From Candidatus Saccharimonadota bacterium (GTDB lineage Bacteria; Patescibacteriota; Saccharimonadia; Saccharimonadales; Saccharimonadaceae), in the NCBI GenBank assembly GCA_028288995.1, contig JAQGHF010000005.1, forward strand, positions 46,578-110,577: a stretch of DNA of 64,000 bases. The letters run 5' to 3'. Position 1 is the first letter of the stretch, and each line of letters opens with the position of its first letter. Shown in pieces: positions 1 through 9,798 of the stretch. Below the pieces are notes generated by a model, which made no database searches, was not told the origin of the DNA, and worked only from the letters and a program-made list of their open reading frames with translations. The translations under genes and the position numbers were made by a program.

Positions 1-21
1 AATAAAGCATTAGCTCTATTG

Positions 22-156
22 TACCAAACTAGGCTAGTGTTGGGGTGGGTTGTGCACTTTTCGTCCTTTAGGACTCATCAGTATATTCCAATAAATATAG
101 AAGTGACCGGGAGGGACACCCAAACCTAAACGCCATGAAGTGCGCTAGCCTTGGTA
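22..156 (-). other. Long imperfect hairpin extending stem III of the hammerhead
   Basis: Minus-strand pairings outside the core: TACCA+AGGCTAG (156-145) with CTAGCCT+agtt+TGGTA (37-22); GTTTGGGTG (125-117) with CACCCCAAC (47-39), 8/9. Confidence 0.6.
55..105 (-). ncRNA. Type III hammerhead ribozyme
   Basis: Minus strand 105->55: CACTTC TATATT tattgg AATATA CTGATGA GTCC TAAA GGAC GAAA AGTG. Complete invariant core (CUGAUGA, GAAA, UUC cleavage triplet), stem I 6 bp, stem II 4 bp with UAAA loop, stem III CACUU/AAGUG. Predicted cleavage is between plus positions 100 and 99. Confidence 0.88.
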
Positions 157-196
157 TGCCCCTCCCATGTACACACGGATGGCGGATCTGGAAGGA

Positions 197-430
197 TCAG
201 CCGTTGCGGAGGTTTTTCGCCCTGGTGACGGTAGCGTCGGGCCGGAGGGTGTCCTTCGGGTCGAGGCGCTTGCCGTCGGACACGAGCGAGTGGCCCGGGA
301 CTTCGACCTGCAGACCGGCTGCGGCGAAGTACTCCTCGATAGTCTGACCATCGATGTGAAGCTCTTCCTTGGTGCTCGTGCCGTCCTTGAGTGTGACCGT
401 CGCGGGACGGCCTTTCGTCGTGTTCGTCAT
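197..430 (-). CDS. Ubiquitin-like (beta-grasp) protein, 77 aa, C-terminal ...KNLRNG
   Basis: SD GAAAGGAAAAGG before ATG at 430; Ubl-like pattern TVTLKDG..EELHIDGQTIEEYFAAAGL..SLVSDGKRLDPKDTLRPDATVTRAKNLRNG; follows an E1-like gene. Confidence 0.7.
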   Translation of the reverse strand: MTNTTKGRPATVTLKDGTSTKEELHIDGQTIEEYFAAAGLQVEVPGHSLVSDGKRLDPKDTLRPDATVTRAKNLRNG

Positions 431-449
431 GGTGCCTTTTCCTTTCGGA

Positions 450-1097
450 CTAGACCAGCTGCGGATGCGCCTGGTCTTCTGATTCCGACAGAAGGTCTCG
501 TTCCAAGAGACCAACGATCGGCTCATCCCTCACGAAGAGGGCGAGATGGGAACTCAGGATCTGCGCGACTGCCAGAGCTGAGTGAGGGTTCTCCCGAGTA
601 GCGCAGCCCAATTCAAGGGCTTCGTCGTCGAGAAAGATCCAGGACTTGTAGCGGTCGACATCCTTCGGTAGGTTCGGATCCATGGTGTGAATCTGAACAC
701 TGTCCGCACCGATGCGAGCATCGATGTAGAGGAAGACTTCGAAGTTGAACTCGACCGCTTGCCAGATATTGCCGCGCGCTTCGAGCGTGTCAACTCCAGA
801 GATAACGATGCCCGAAAGCTTCGATTCCCCCGTCGCCCACTCGTTGTGTGCGACGATCTGAGTCTTGAAGCCACGCTCTTCCACGAACCTCGCCGCCGCC
901 TCGACTTTCGGATACCCGATGTCGAGGGGGCAGTACAGGAACTGTGTGGGAAGATTGTGCGCTTCGACAATATCTTCGTCCCAGATGTGAACCTCACGAG
1001 TGCCGTGTTCGAGCAGCATCTGCAGAACATGTGTTCCGATGCCACCCATGCCGATCACGTGTATCTCGTGTGGCCAGGTTGCCAGTGATTGTGCCAT
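450..1097 (-). CDS. ThiF/E1-like adenylyltransferase, 215 aa
   Basis: GMGGIGTHVLQMLLEHG nucleotide-binding loop, DEDIVEAHNLPTQ, SGVDTLEARGNIW; SD CGGAG before ATG at 1097. Confidence 0.85.
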   Translation of the reverse strand: MAQSLATWPHEIHVIGMGGIGTHVLQMLLEHGTREVHIWDEDIVEAHNLPTQFLYCPLDIGYPKVEAAARFVEERGFKTQIVAHNEWATGESKLSGIVISGVDTLEARGNIWQAVEFNFEVFLYIDARIGADSVQIHTMDPNLPKDVDRYKSWIFLDDEALELGCATRENPHSALAVAQILSSHLALFVRDEPIVGLLERDLLSESEDQAHPQLV

Positions 1098-1110
1098 GAT
1101 GCTCCGTTTC

Positions 1111-1815
1111 CTAGGCGACTTGTTTGAATGCGTTCGGGACGTCGAGGATGTCCTCATCGTTGATATTGCACAACGAGAAGGTGATCACCTCGATCGCAGC
1201 CAGATAGTCTCGCTCTTGCAGGTATCCCTCGACAATGTCGAAATTGTCCCCAAGGCAGAACTTGTGGTCGCCGAGCCGATAGACCGGTGCGTGGCTGTTC
1301 CAGTTAGGGACGACGCCCGAGCGACGCTCGTAGACATTGTATCCGACGTGCATGTCTTGCTTGAGACTCTGGTGACCGATCTCGATACTCCAATCACCCA
1401 GATCATAGATGATGCCCGCAAATTCATAGCGAGCACCAATAATGAGTTGGAGTGTCTGGTCTTTCGTGACCGACAGACGAAGCAGGTACGGATTTGCACA
1501 CAATCGTGCAAATTCTTTCTGCACCATCTCCACGCTGATCGAGGTGTAATTCTCGAGCGAGCTTTCGAGTGCCTGAGTCTCCTGAAGTGCCTCGTTCAAT
1601 CGACTGCGCATCTTCATCATCGAACGAACAAGTTGATCAGAATCCAGCTTACGTGGACGCCGATTAGCTTGCTGTTCGCTGATGTCGTGCAGGTTTGCAC
1701 GGTAGCTGACACACTGTGCATGCAGTTTCTTGAGACGCTCCTTCGCCGAGGTCCGGCGACGAATCTTCATGTACGCCTCAAACGCTTGGTGATGCTTGGA
1801 AGGCTCGATAGCCAT
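1111..1815 (-). CDS. E2-like ubiquitin-conjugating domain protein with N-terminal helical region, 234 aa
   Basis: C-terminal WNSHAPVYRLGDHKFCLGDNFDIVEGYLQERDYLAAIEVITFSLCNIND matches the prokaryotic E2 pattern H-P/A-x-V...CLG...; SD GAAGGAGA before ATG at 1815. Confidence 0.68.
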   Translation of the reverse strand: MAIEPSKHHQAFEAYMKIRRRTSAKERLKKLHAQCVSYRANLHDISEQQANRRPRKLDSDQLVRSMMKMRSRLNEALQETQALESSLENYTSISVEMVQKEFARLCANPYLLRLSVTKDQTLQLIIGARYEFAGIIYDLGDWSIEIGHQSLKQDMHVGYNVYERRSGVVPNWNSHAPVYRLGDHKFCLGDNFDIVEGYLQERDYLAAIEVITFSLCNINDEDILDVPNAFKQVA

Positions 1816-1847
1816 GACGATTCTCCTTCGGTGTTGGAATAAATGAG

Positions 1848-1907
1848 TAGTGTCACCGCAATTATCCATGTGCATATGTGCATACATGTATAAAAGTGGT
1901 GACACTA
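1848..1907. promoter_or_regulatory. 10-bp perfect inverted repeat (TAGTGTCACC / GGTGACACTA) in the leader/promoter region of the E2-E1-Ubl operon
   Basis: Arms 1848-1857 and 1898-1907; central tgcatatgtgca-type palindrome. Confidence 0.6.
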
Positions 1908-2064
1908 TTCTTTACTCAACAATACCGATATCGTGTGTACTGTTAAAATACATAAAAAACCGAAGCTTTTTATGAAGTAGGATTATGTCTGATCTTAGAG
2001 ACAAAGTCAAACATAAGAAAAAAGCCTCTCCTTTTGGGAAAGACCTTTTTCTGAGTGGGAAGTG

Positions 2065-2568
2065 TTACGAAATTCGTACAAGACGGAATGTCGTATTGTT
2101 GATACCAGAGCTCCACTCAACGATGTCTTTAACGGTTTTACCGACAAGATTACGTCCTAATGGGCTAAGGACTGAGATGCGTCCATCGCTTGGGTTCGCT
2201 TCGATTGTATCAACCAGCGTATAGCGGAAGAGTCTTCCCTGCTGGTCGATCAGGTCAACGACTGATCCCATAGCGACTTTCATTCGAGCTCGCTTTGATG
2301 GGAGTAACTTTGCTTCGAGAATCGTTTGGTGCTTTTCTGAAAGTTCCGATTCGATCGATTCAAGTCGTGCTAATCGCTCCACTCGCTCGAGGCGGTCATC
2401 ATGACCTGTTGTTTTATCTATATCGTGTAAGCCTTTAATGACCATTGCACGATCGTGTTCTAATTGTGAGATTGCCTTCTTCAATTCTTTCATACCCTTT
2501 TTACTGAGTAAGATTGTTTTTTCTGTTGGCTTCATTGTATTGGTGATGGTGGTGTTCATATTGTTCAC
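2065..2568 (-). CDS. GreA/GreB-family transcription elongation factor
   Basis: N-terminal coiled coil plus C-terminal VGSVVDL...SPLGRNLVGKTVKDIVEW Gre domain. Confidence 0.8.
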   Translation of the reverse strand: MNNMNTTITNTMKPTEKTILLSKKGMKELKKAISQLEHDRAMVIKGLHDIDKTTGHDDRLERVERLARLESIESELSEKHQTILEAKLLPSKRARMKVAMGSVVDLIDQQGRLFRYTLVDTIEANPSDGRISVLSPLGRNLVGKTVKDIVEWSSGINNTTFRLVRIS

Positions 2569-8667: not shown

Positions 8668-9798
8668 ATGAAGACCCGTATAGATATAGACACAAGAACA
8701 TTTGTTCGATTTTGGCTCGTTGTTATTGGATTTGGTTTTGCAATTTTTGCTATTTACCACGCGCTTATTGCCCTTATTATTCTTGGAGTGGCGCTCTTCT
8801 TGGCGCTTGCTTTGAATGGTCCTGTGTCGCGAATTGCACGTATTCTTCCTGGTAAGAGTCGCGTTGCTGCGACTGCACTTGCGTACATACTCGTTGTCGT
8901 TATCCTCGGCTCGATTATCTTCCTTGTTATCCCACCAGTTGTGCAACAAACCGCAAAGTTTGTTCAAAACATTCCCTCACTTGTTGATACGGCAACAAAT
9001 CAGTGGAAAGGGCTGAATGGGCTTATCGACCAATACAACTTGAAACCTCAAGTTGATCAAGCGGTGAACTCAATCAAAGACAGTACCGCAAGCTGGGCGA
9101 GTAATGTTGGGAAGAGTGTCATCACTGGTGTCGGTTCATTCTTCTCGTTCCTTACCGCTACCTTGCTTGTTCTTGTACTGACATTCTTAATGCTTATCGA
9201 AGGTCCTATGTGGATGAAACGACTCTGGGCGCTCTACAACGATCGAAAGAAGATGGTACTTCATCAACGAATTGTCAGTCGTATGTACGGTGTCGTTAGT
9301 GGCTACATCACTGGTCAGCTGACTGTTTCAGCAATTGGCGGTGTCCTTGCCGGTGCAGCTGTCTTTGTGCTGAGCTTCATCTTCCCTCAGATCCCATCAG
9401 GTCTCGCCTTCCCTACGGCTGCTATCACCTTTGTTCTGTCATTGATTCCGATGTTCGGTGCAACGATTGCTGGGCTTTTGATTACTGCACTGCTTGCATT
9501 TAACGCATTGCCTGCAGCGATCATTTACATTATCTACTTCTTCGTTTACCAGCAAGTTGAGAACAATTTTGTCGCACCACATATCCAAGCAAAGAAAATC
9601 GAACTGTCTGCACTTGCAGTGCTTGGTTCAGTCACCATCGGATTGTATCTATTCGGTATCGTCGGTGGTATTATCGCCATTCCAATTGCTGGATCAATTC
9701 GTGTGCTGCTTGATGAGTATCTTCAGCATGTAAAAGCTGAGCGATTAGAAGCTAAGGGTTCAAAGAAAAAAGAAGTCGATATTGAGATTAGCGCGTAA
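8668..9798 (+). CDS. AI-2E family transporter / permease
   Basis: Multi-TM protein with IPMFGATIAG...EPhI-like ENNFVAPHIQAKKIELSALAVL. Confidence 0.9.
   Translation: MKTRIDIDTRTFVRFWLVVIGFGFAIFAIYHALIALIILGVALFLALALNGPVSRIARILPGKSRVAATALAYILVVVILGSIIFLVIPPVVQQTAKFVQNIPSLVDTATNQWKGLNGLIDQYNLKPQVDQAVNSIKDSTASWASNVGKSVITGVGSFFSFLTATLLVLVLTFLMLIEGPMWMKRLWALYNDRKKMVLHQRIVSRMYGVVSGYITGQLTVSAIGGVLAGAAVFVLSFIFPQIPSGLAFPTAAITFVLSLIPMFGATIAGLLITALLAFNALPAAIIYIIYFFVYQQVENNFVAPHIQAKKIELSALAVLGSVTIGLYLFGIVGGIIAIPIAGSIRVLLDEYLQHVKAERLEAKGSKKKEVDIEISA

Follow-up and report, generated by a model that had tools for sequence, protein, structure and literature searches.

On the minus strand at the start of the window (the whole 64-kb stretch of DNA analysed, from a Candidatus Saccharimonadota genome of 836 kb), a block of foreign-looking sequence lies between greA and a P-type ATPase gene. 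In transcriptional order it consists of a promoter, an E2-like gene, an E1/ThiF gene, a ubiquitin-like (Ubl) gene, a strong hairpin and a hammerhead ribozyme (Table 1). The genes around the hammerhead include greA, an ABC transporter and the P-type ATPase, with no phage genes among the neighbours. In two sister species (G012, locus L056, and G006, locus L057) the P-type ATPase gene follows directly on greA and its terminator, and the alignment with the window runs as far as position 28 and picks up again at 2018. Since this alignment is gapless across the junction, the window must hold an insert, whose position coincides with the T-run of the greA intrinsic terminator. The GC content of the insert is 53–58%, compared to 41–48% in most of the right-flanking DNA. 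An earlier suggestion, made from the sequence alone, that the hammerhead might mark a mobile element is thus upheld in the sense that it belongs to an inserted element with an exact empty site in both sister species.

Table 1. Features of the inserted cassette and of its flanking genes (window coordinates).
Feature	Position	Strand	Evidence or remark
P-type ATPase start, downstream host gene	1..10	-	L002 7479-10010; extends left of the window
Inserted cassette, ~1,990 bp	29..2017	-	Empty-site comparison; ends accurate to a few bases
Segment from hammerhead to insert end, ~26 nt	29..54	-	Empty-site comparison
Type III hammerhead ribozyme	55..105	-	RF00008, 39.3 bits; lineage model R1 (built without this copy), 58.4 bits
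Strong imperfect hairpin between Ubl stop codon and hammerhead	109..166	-	Folds; no U-tract after it
Ubiquitin-like protein, ~77 aa, C-terminal ...KNLRNG	197..430	-	ORF
E1/ThiF-like protein	450..1097	-	Pfam ThiF, E 5.5e-20; PADLOC BilD, E 5e-14
E2-like protein, ~234 aa, with coiled-coil part and H...FCLG motif	1111..1815	-	Start at AAGGAGAATCGTCATG
Promoter-like TTGACT-N17-CATAAT, inside left end of insert	1982..2010	-	Read from sequence
greA, upstream host gene	2065..2568	-	ORF; insert at its terminator T-run

The original prediction placed a type III hammerhead on the minus strand, and every element was found in its expected place. Stem III is formed by CACUU (105–101) and AAGUG (59–55), including the U16.1-A15.1 pair, and stem II by GUCC (74–71) and GGAC (66–63) with a UAAA loop, while the core motifs CUGAUGA and GAA occupy positions 81–75 and 62–60 of the minus strand. 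The window copy therefore carries the core CUGANGA ... GAAA together with the UH before the cleavage site, which is predicted to lie between positions 100 and 99, with C17 at 100. Stem I was located correctly but drawn too short, because UAUAUUU (99–93) and GAAUAUA (88–82) make seven pairs, the seventh being U-G, around a 4-nt AUUG loop rather than six pairs around a 6-nt loop. A search of 450 bp with the Rfam model RF00008 (Hammerhead_3) matched positions 107–53 (minus strand; E 3.7e-7), and across the whole genome this hammerhead was the sole match (E 1.6e-7). At 39.3 bits the match does not reach the gathering score of 48.5, so that a default Rfam run is silent here; that score is a cut-off chosen in curation, not a property of the molecule. 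With a lineage covariance model (R1) built from 49 related hammerheads, the window copy scored 58.4 bits (E 9e-18 over the 64 kb), compared to 10.8 bits and E 0.78 for the runner-up. As a claim about sequence, the presence of a type III hammerhead at this position is settled. Elsewhere in the window, a ribosomal protein L10 leader (21269–21118, minus strand, 46.3 bits) is an ordinary feature.

Directly upstream of the ribozyme, an 85-nt stretch folds with a z-score of -3.3. The prediction had set the hammerhead at the tip of a larger outer hairpin (AGGCTAG/CTAGCCT, GTTTGGGTG/CACCCCAAC); this pairing can be written, but under constrained folding it reaches only -39.7 kcal/mol, ~13 kcal/mol worse than the -52.8 kcal/mol of the local hairpin (166–109) combined with the hammerhead, and we abandoned it.

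The genes of the insert resemble prokaryotic Ubl conjugation operons (E1-E2-JAB-Ubl; PMC1779556, Bil/CBASS type II) in bringing a ThiF-like E1 gene together with putative E2-like and Ubl genes, and the hammerhead lies, as proposed, on the coding strand in the 3' UTR of this operon. The E1 is clear by Pfam, and the other two proteins were assigned by motif and context. A Pfam search returned no match for the Ubl protein; its counterpart at locus L053 matches SAMP2 weakly (E 0.008). Since the Pfam search gave no significant match for the E2-like protein either, its assignment rests on its motif, found as H...FCFG in the L035 and L053 counterparts, and on its neighbourhood. The window operon differs from the known systems in being diverged and in having a Ubl that ends in NG. 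Additionally, a scan of GTDB proteins yielded just two further proteins closely related to the E1, both in Saccharibacteria, and both encoded in operons with Ubl at other genomic sites, one before dnaK in G007, of the same genus as the window genome, and the other at L053 in G070, which also has a JAB gene. A hammerhead follows all three of these E1 operons. The proposed pairing of hammerhead and Ubl operon is therefore recurrent, but it is not special to Ubl, since such operons make up three of the ~70 cargoes examined and the remainder are unrelated small genes. The 5' UTR of the window cassette has a 14-mer, GTTGAGTAAAGAAT (1920–1907, minus strand), in common with that of a cassette from a different genus, which ends at 9350 (minus strand) of L040.

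Hammerheads of this kind are widespread among the relatives of the window genome. At E <= 1e-4, RF00008 detected them in 48 of 295 family genomes, only three of which carry a copy above the gathering cut-off, and the lineage model gave ~150 matches in 74 of 394 family genomes and 29 of 61 genera. Across the Patescibacteria, 22 of 380 genomes have hammerheads, and the layout of a GC-shifted gene followed by hairpin and hammerhead recurs in many families of the phylum. Covariation in 50 relatives of one length class supports three stems with an open-ended stem III: 94.8% of cells are paired, and the covariation value is 0.771, compared to 0.24 after shuffling and at most 0.13 after sliding, in a set chosen partly for pairing. 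A less biased check comes from viral contigs, where 63 of 71 matches selected on the core and stem II alone also close stems I and III.

Most of the hammerheads stand behind small, mutually unrelated, GC-shifted genes and a hairpin, either singly or in tandem. A stable hairpin (z < -2) was found directly 5' of the ribozyme in 52 of 70 copies, but in only 11 of 70 when a control segment farther upstream was taken; the hammerheads of L042 and L101 have neither a hairpin nor a clear upstream cargo. The gene downstream is co-directional in 45 of 67 cases, at a median distance of 60 nt, and the ~70 cargo proteins scarcely cluster. Tandem arrays occur in G149 and in G041, where four hammerheads are spaced ~600 bp apart and each unit has its own promoter, ORF, hairpin and hammerhead. 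Arrays of three or four cassettes were seen at L038:5951-7889 (-), L039:15422-19778 (+) and L102:4001-5974 (+), every unit ending in a hammerhead and the cargo proteins being mostly unrelated. Among individual cargoes, the protein encoded upstream of the hammerhead at L040:4001-4055 (-) has at its end a domain like the C-terminal one of RNA polymerase alpha (Pfam E 1e-12). Separately, a 20-mer, GATCNGATTTGCCTCTCGAG, is conserved ~50–75 nt past the hammerhead core at L010, L018, L027, L034, L041 and L050, in a second subfamily (stem III CTGTC/ACAG) present in several genera.

Precise presence and absence at orthologous sites was seen for relatives as well as for the window. The empty site between grpE and dnaK puts the end of the insert ~5–15 nt past stem III, an empty site was found between HIT and rlmH, and comparison of L142 with L051 gave the same kind of presence/absence difference. 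In G050, the rlmH start codon follows immediately 3' of the hammerhead; in G113 and G093 a hammerhead also precedes rlmH, behind different cargo or none, and G125 lacks the hammerhead. Related species thus have different cassettes or none at a single intergenic site, both at rlmH (L092–L095) and at rmlC (L048/L136/L138/L140), as if these were favoured insertion sites. The cassette before rlmH in G093 (L047/L094) is only ~200 bp long and has a promoter without a long ORF, a minimal or decayed form. The ends of the inserts vary between sites, and no target-site duplication was seen at those compared. We also considered whether insertion always occurs at a terminator, which is true of the window and perhaps of L035, where a hairpin follows the grpE stop codon, but fails for L051/L142 and for the rlmH site.

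The rmlC locus provides a natural exchange of the hammerhead module for a terminator. In G032 and G177, a Nudix gene is followed by hairpin and hammerhead, while in G109 the same gene, 82% identical in DNA over 574 bp, in the same place and with a similar promoter, is followed by an intrinsic terminator and no hammerhead. Of all the evidence, this swap argues most strongly that the module stands in for a terminator.

We also compared the two ends of each cassette for complementarity. Because GC content differs, duplex energies served poorly as a statistic, and we therefore counted exact matches against swapped partners, comparing a 40-nt segment that spans the stem III start with up to 3 kb upstream. 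Exact complements of at least 12 nt were found in 14 of 68 cassettes, compared to 0.8 expected, a count that includes about eight copies of one related subfamily. The 3' partner tends to lie directly against stem III and the upstream partner in the 5' UTR, in many cases no more than 25 nt from the start codon and in some across the ribosome binding site. In the subfamily of about eight (TGACAAGCAGACA/TGTCTGCTTGTCA), different genera have conserved 5' and 3' frames around unrelated cargo proteins. For the window cassette, pairing did not exceed its background: tiles from its own operon equal its 9-nt exact match and its duplex of -26.9 kcal/mol. Among phage hammerheads, a preceding hairpin is also common, but the 5'-3' pattern of the cassettes is absent and the long matches are mostly palindromes. 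One palindrome, GTGTCTTTAAAGACAC, recurs in viral contigs L149, L191, L194, L195 and L209, both just before the hammerheads and upstream of genes.

The insert in the window is best explained as belonging to a large cassette family, found in Saccharibacteria and in other Patescibacteria, in which the ribozyme probably serves as the 3'-end-forming module of accessory genes, a reading to which we give a probability of roughly 60%. Each cassette would carry a promoter of its own with one gene or a few, and would close with a stable hairpin and a type III hammerhead right behind it. As a terminator is missing ahead of the hammerhead in most cassettes, we infer that RNA polymerase does not stop at the cassette end and goes on to transcribe the neighbouring gene. 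The predicted cut by the ribozyme would then set a fixed 3' end of the cassette mRNA just past the hairpin, which may block 3' exonucleases, and the same cut would release the transcript of the neighbour with a short leader remaining. In many cassettes, though not clearly in the window, the bases just 5' of stem III could base-pair with 5' UTR sequence, frequently in or around the ribosome binding site, and such pairing would loop the mRNA closed. With a ribozyme in the terminator's stead, a cassette could land near almost any neighbour. Against this reading stand the terminator-like sites that do precede the hammerhead in 11 of 68 cases, the hammerheads of L042 and L101 with neither hairpin nor clear cargo, and the background-level 5'-3' pairing of the window cassette.

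Arrays, ORFan cargo and a long 3' hairpin give the units a cassette-like look, which could also mean that hairpin and hammerhead are mainly a site of DNA attachment or exchange, like the attC of integrons, with ribozyme activity secondary. The frames conserved across genera around unrelated cargo, and the different cargoes at one site before rlmH and rmlC, would fit such a role. Like integron gene cassettes, the units carry small, mostly unrelated genes and a 3' hairpin, and occur both as tandem arrays and as scattered single copies; unlike them, they have their own promoter and a ribozyme as boundary element. In 10 genomes, no integron integrase was found above the 265-bit cut-off, only XerC/D-like proteins, and the insert ends differ from site to site. 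Moreover, the conserved letters are those of the ribozyme core, and the stems covary without conserved sequence, as RNA function demands, which makes a primarily DNA-level role unlikely.

Somewhat less probable still is spread through an RNA intermediate, in which transcripts would be cleaved at either end, closed into circles and reverse-transcribed into DNA as in plant retrozymes, non-autonomous retroelements that are likewise mobile units with a type III hammerhead (PMC6155905). Hammerheads at every unit boundary of the G041 and G149 arrays would suit this scheme, and 5'-3' complementarity would bring the cassette ends together. In contrast to retrozymes, the units described here code for proteins, each has its own promoter, and most inserts have a single hammerhead, which makes a unit-length RNA with two cut ends impossible; the window genome (G000) itself has just one, with none flanking the other end of the unit. 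Reverse transcriptase (PF00078) gave no match in that genome nor in nine of 11 other hammerhead-bearing genomes, and the sites compared have no target-site duplication. The circularising RNA considered in the original prediction accordingly finds no support at this locus.

That the hammerhead is a phage relic doing nothing for the cassette is the least probable reading, because, although complete hammerheads occur in viral contigs and prophage clusters have been published (PMC3088659), divergent copies keep an invariant core and fully covarying stems, most keep a constant position after the hairpin, and the window copy has housekeeping rather than phage neighbours. 

In those prophage clusters, hammerheads were found around individual genes, and processing of long transcripts into gene-length mRNAs was proposed (Perreault et al. 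2011, PMC3088659). The cassettes are similar in that hammerheads lie between individual small, non-constant genes, but they are chromosomal, sit between housekeeping genes of Patescibacteria, usually with one hammerhead per insert, and display a preceding hairpin, empty sites in sister species and complementarity between 5' and 3' UTRs. The ribozyme itself is a member of a known family, sharing with RF00008 type III the complete core, strand order and open stem III, although nearly all copies of this lineage score under its gathering cut-off. The chromosomal cassette frame, with its empty sites, hairpin and 5'-3' pairing, is new and possibly represents a new class. We put at about even odds the fuller proposal of an undescribed class of Patescibacteria cassettes, in which a catalytic RNA forms the 3' boundary and, in place of a terminator, separates cassette from host messages, exchangeable cargo is carried between intergenic sites by an RNA frame that is itself conserved (promoter with 5' UTR element, hairpin, pairing element and hammerhead), and the mRNA is in many cases closed by pairing of its 5' UTR and 3' end. 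A search of the open literature found no paper joining hammerheads and Saccharibacteria.

The default Rfam threshold conceals almost all hammerheads of this lineage. The role of hammerheads in bacteria has been described as an open question (PMC6155905, PMC10085705), and the constant layout, the empty sites and the one swap of hammerhead for terminator make it testable as mRNA 3'-end formation. For bacteria with a reduced, parasitic way of life, such cassettes may offer a route by which accessory genes, for example a Ubl conjugation operon, are gained beside housekeeping genes that remain intact.
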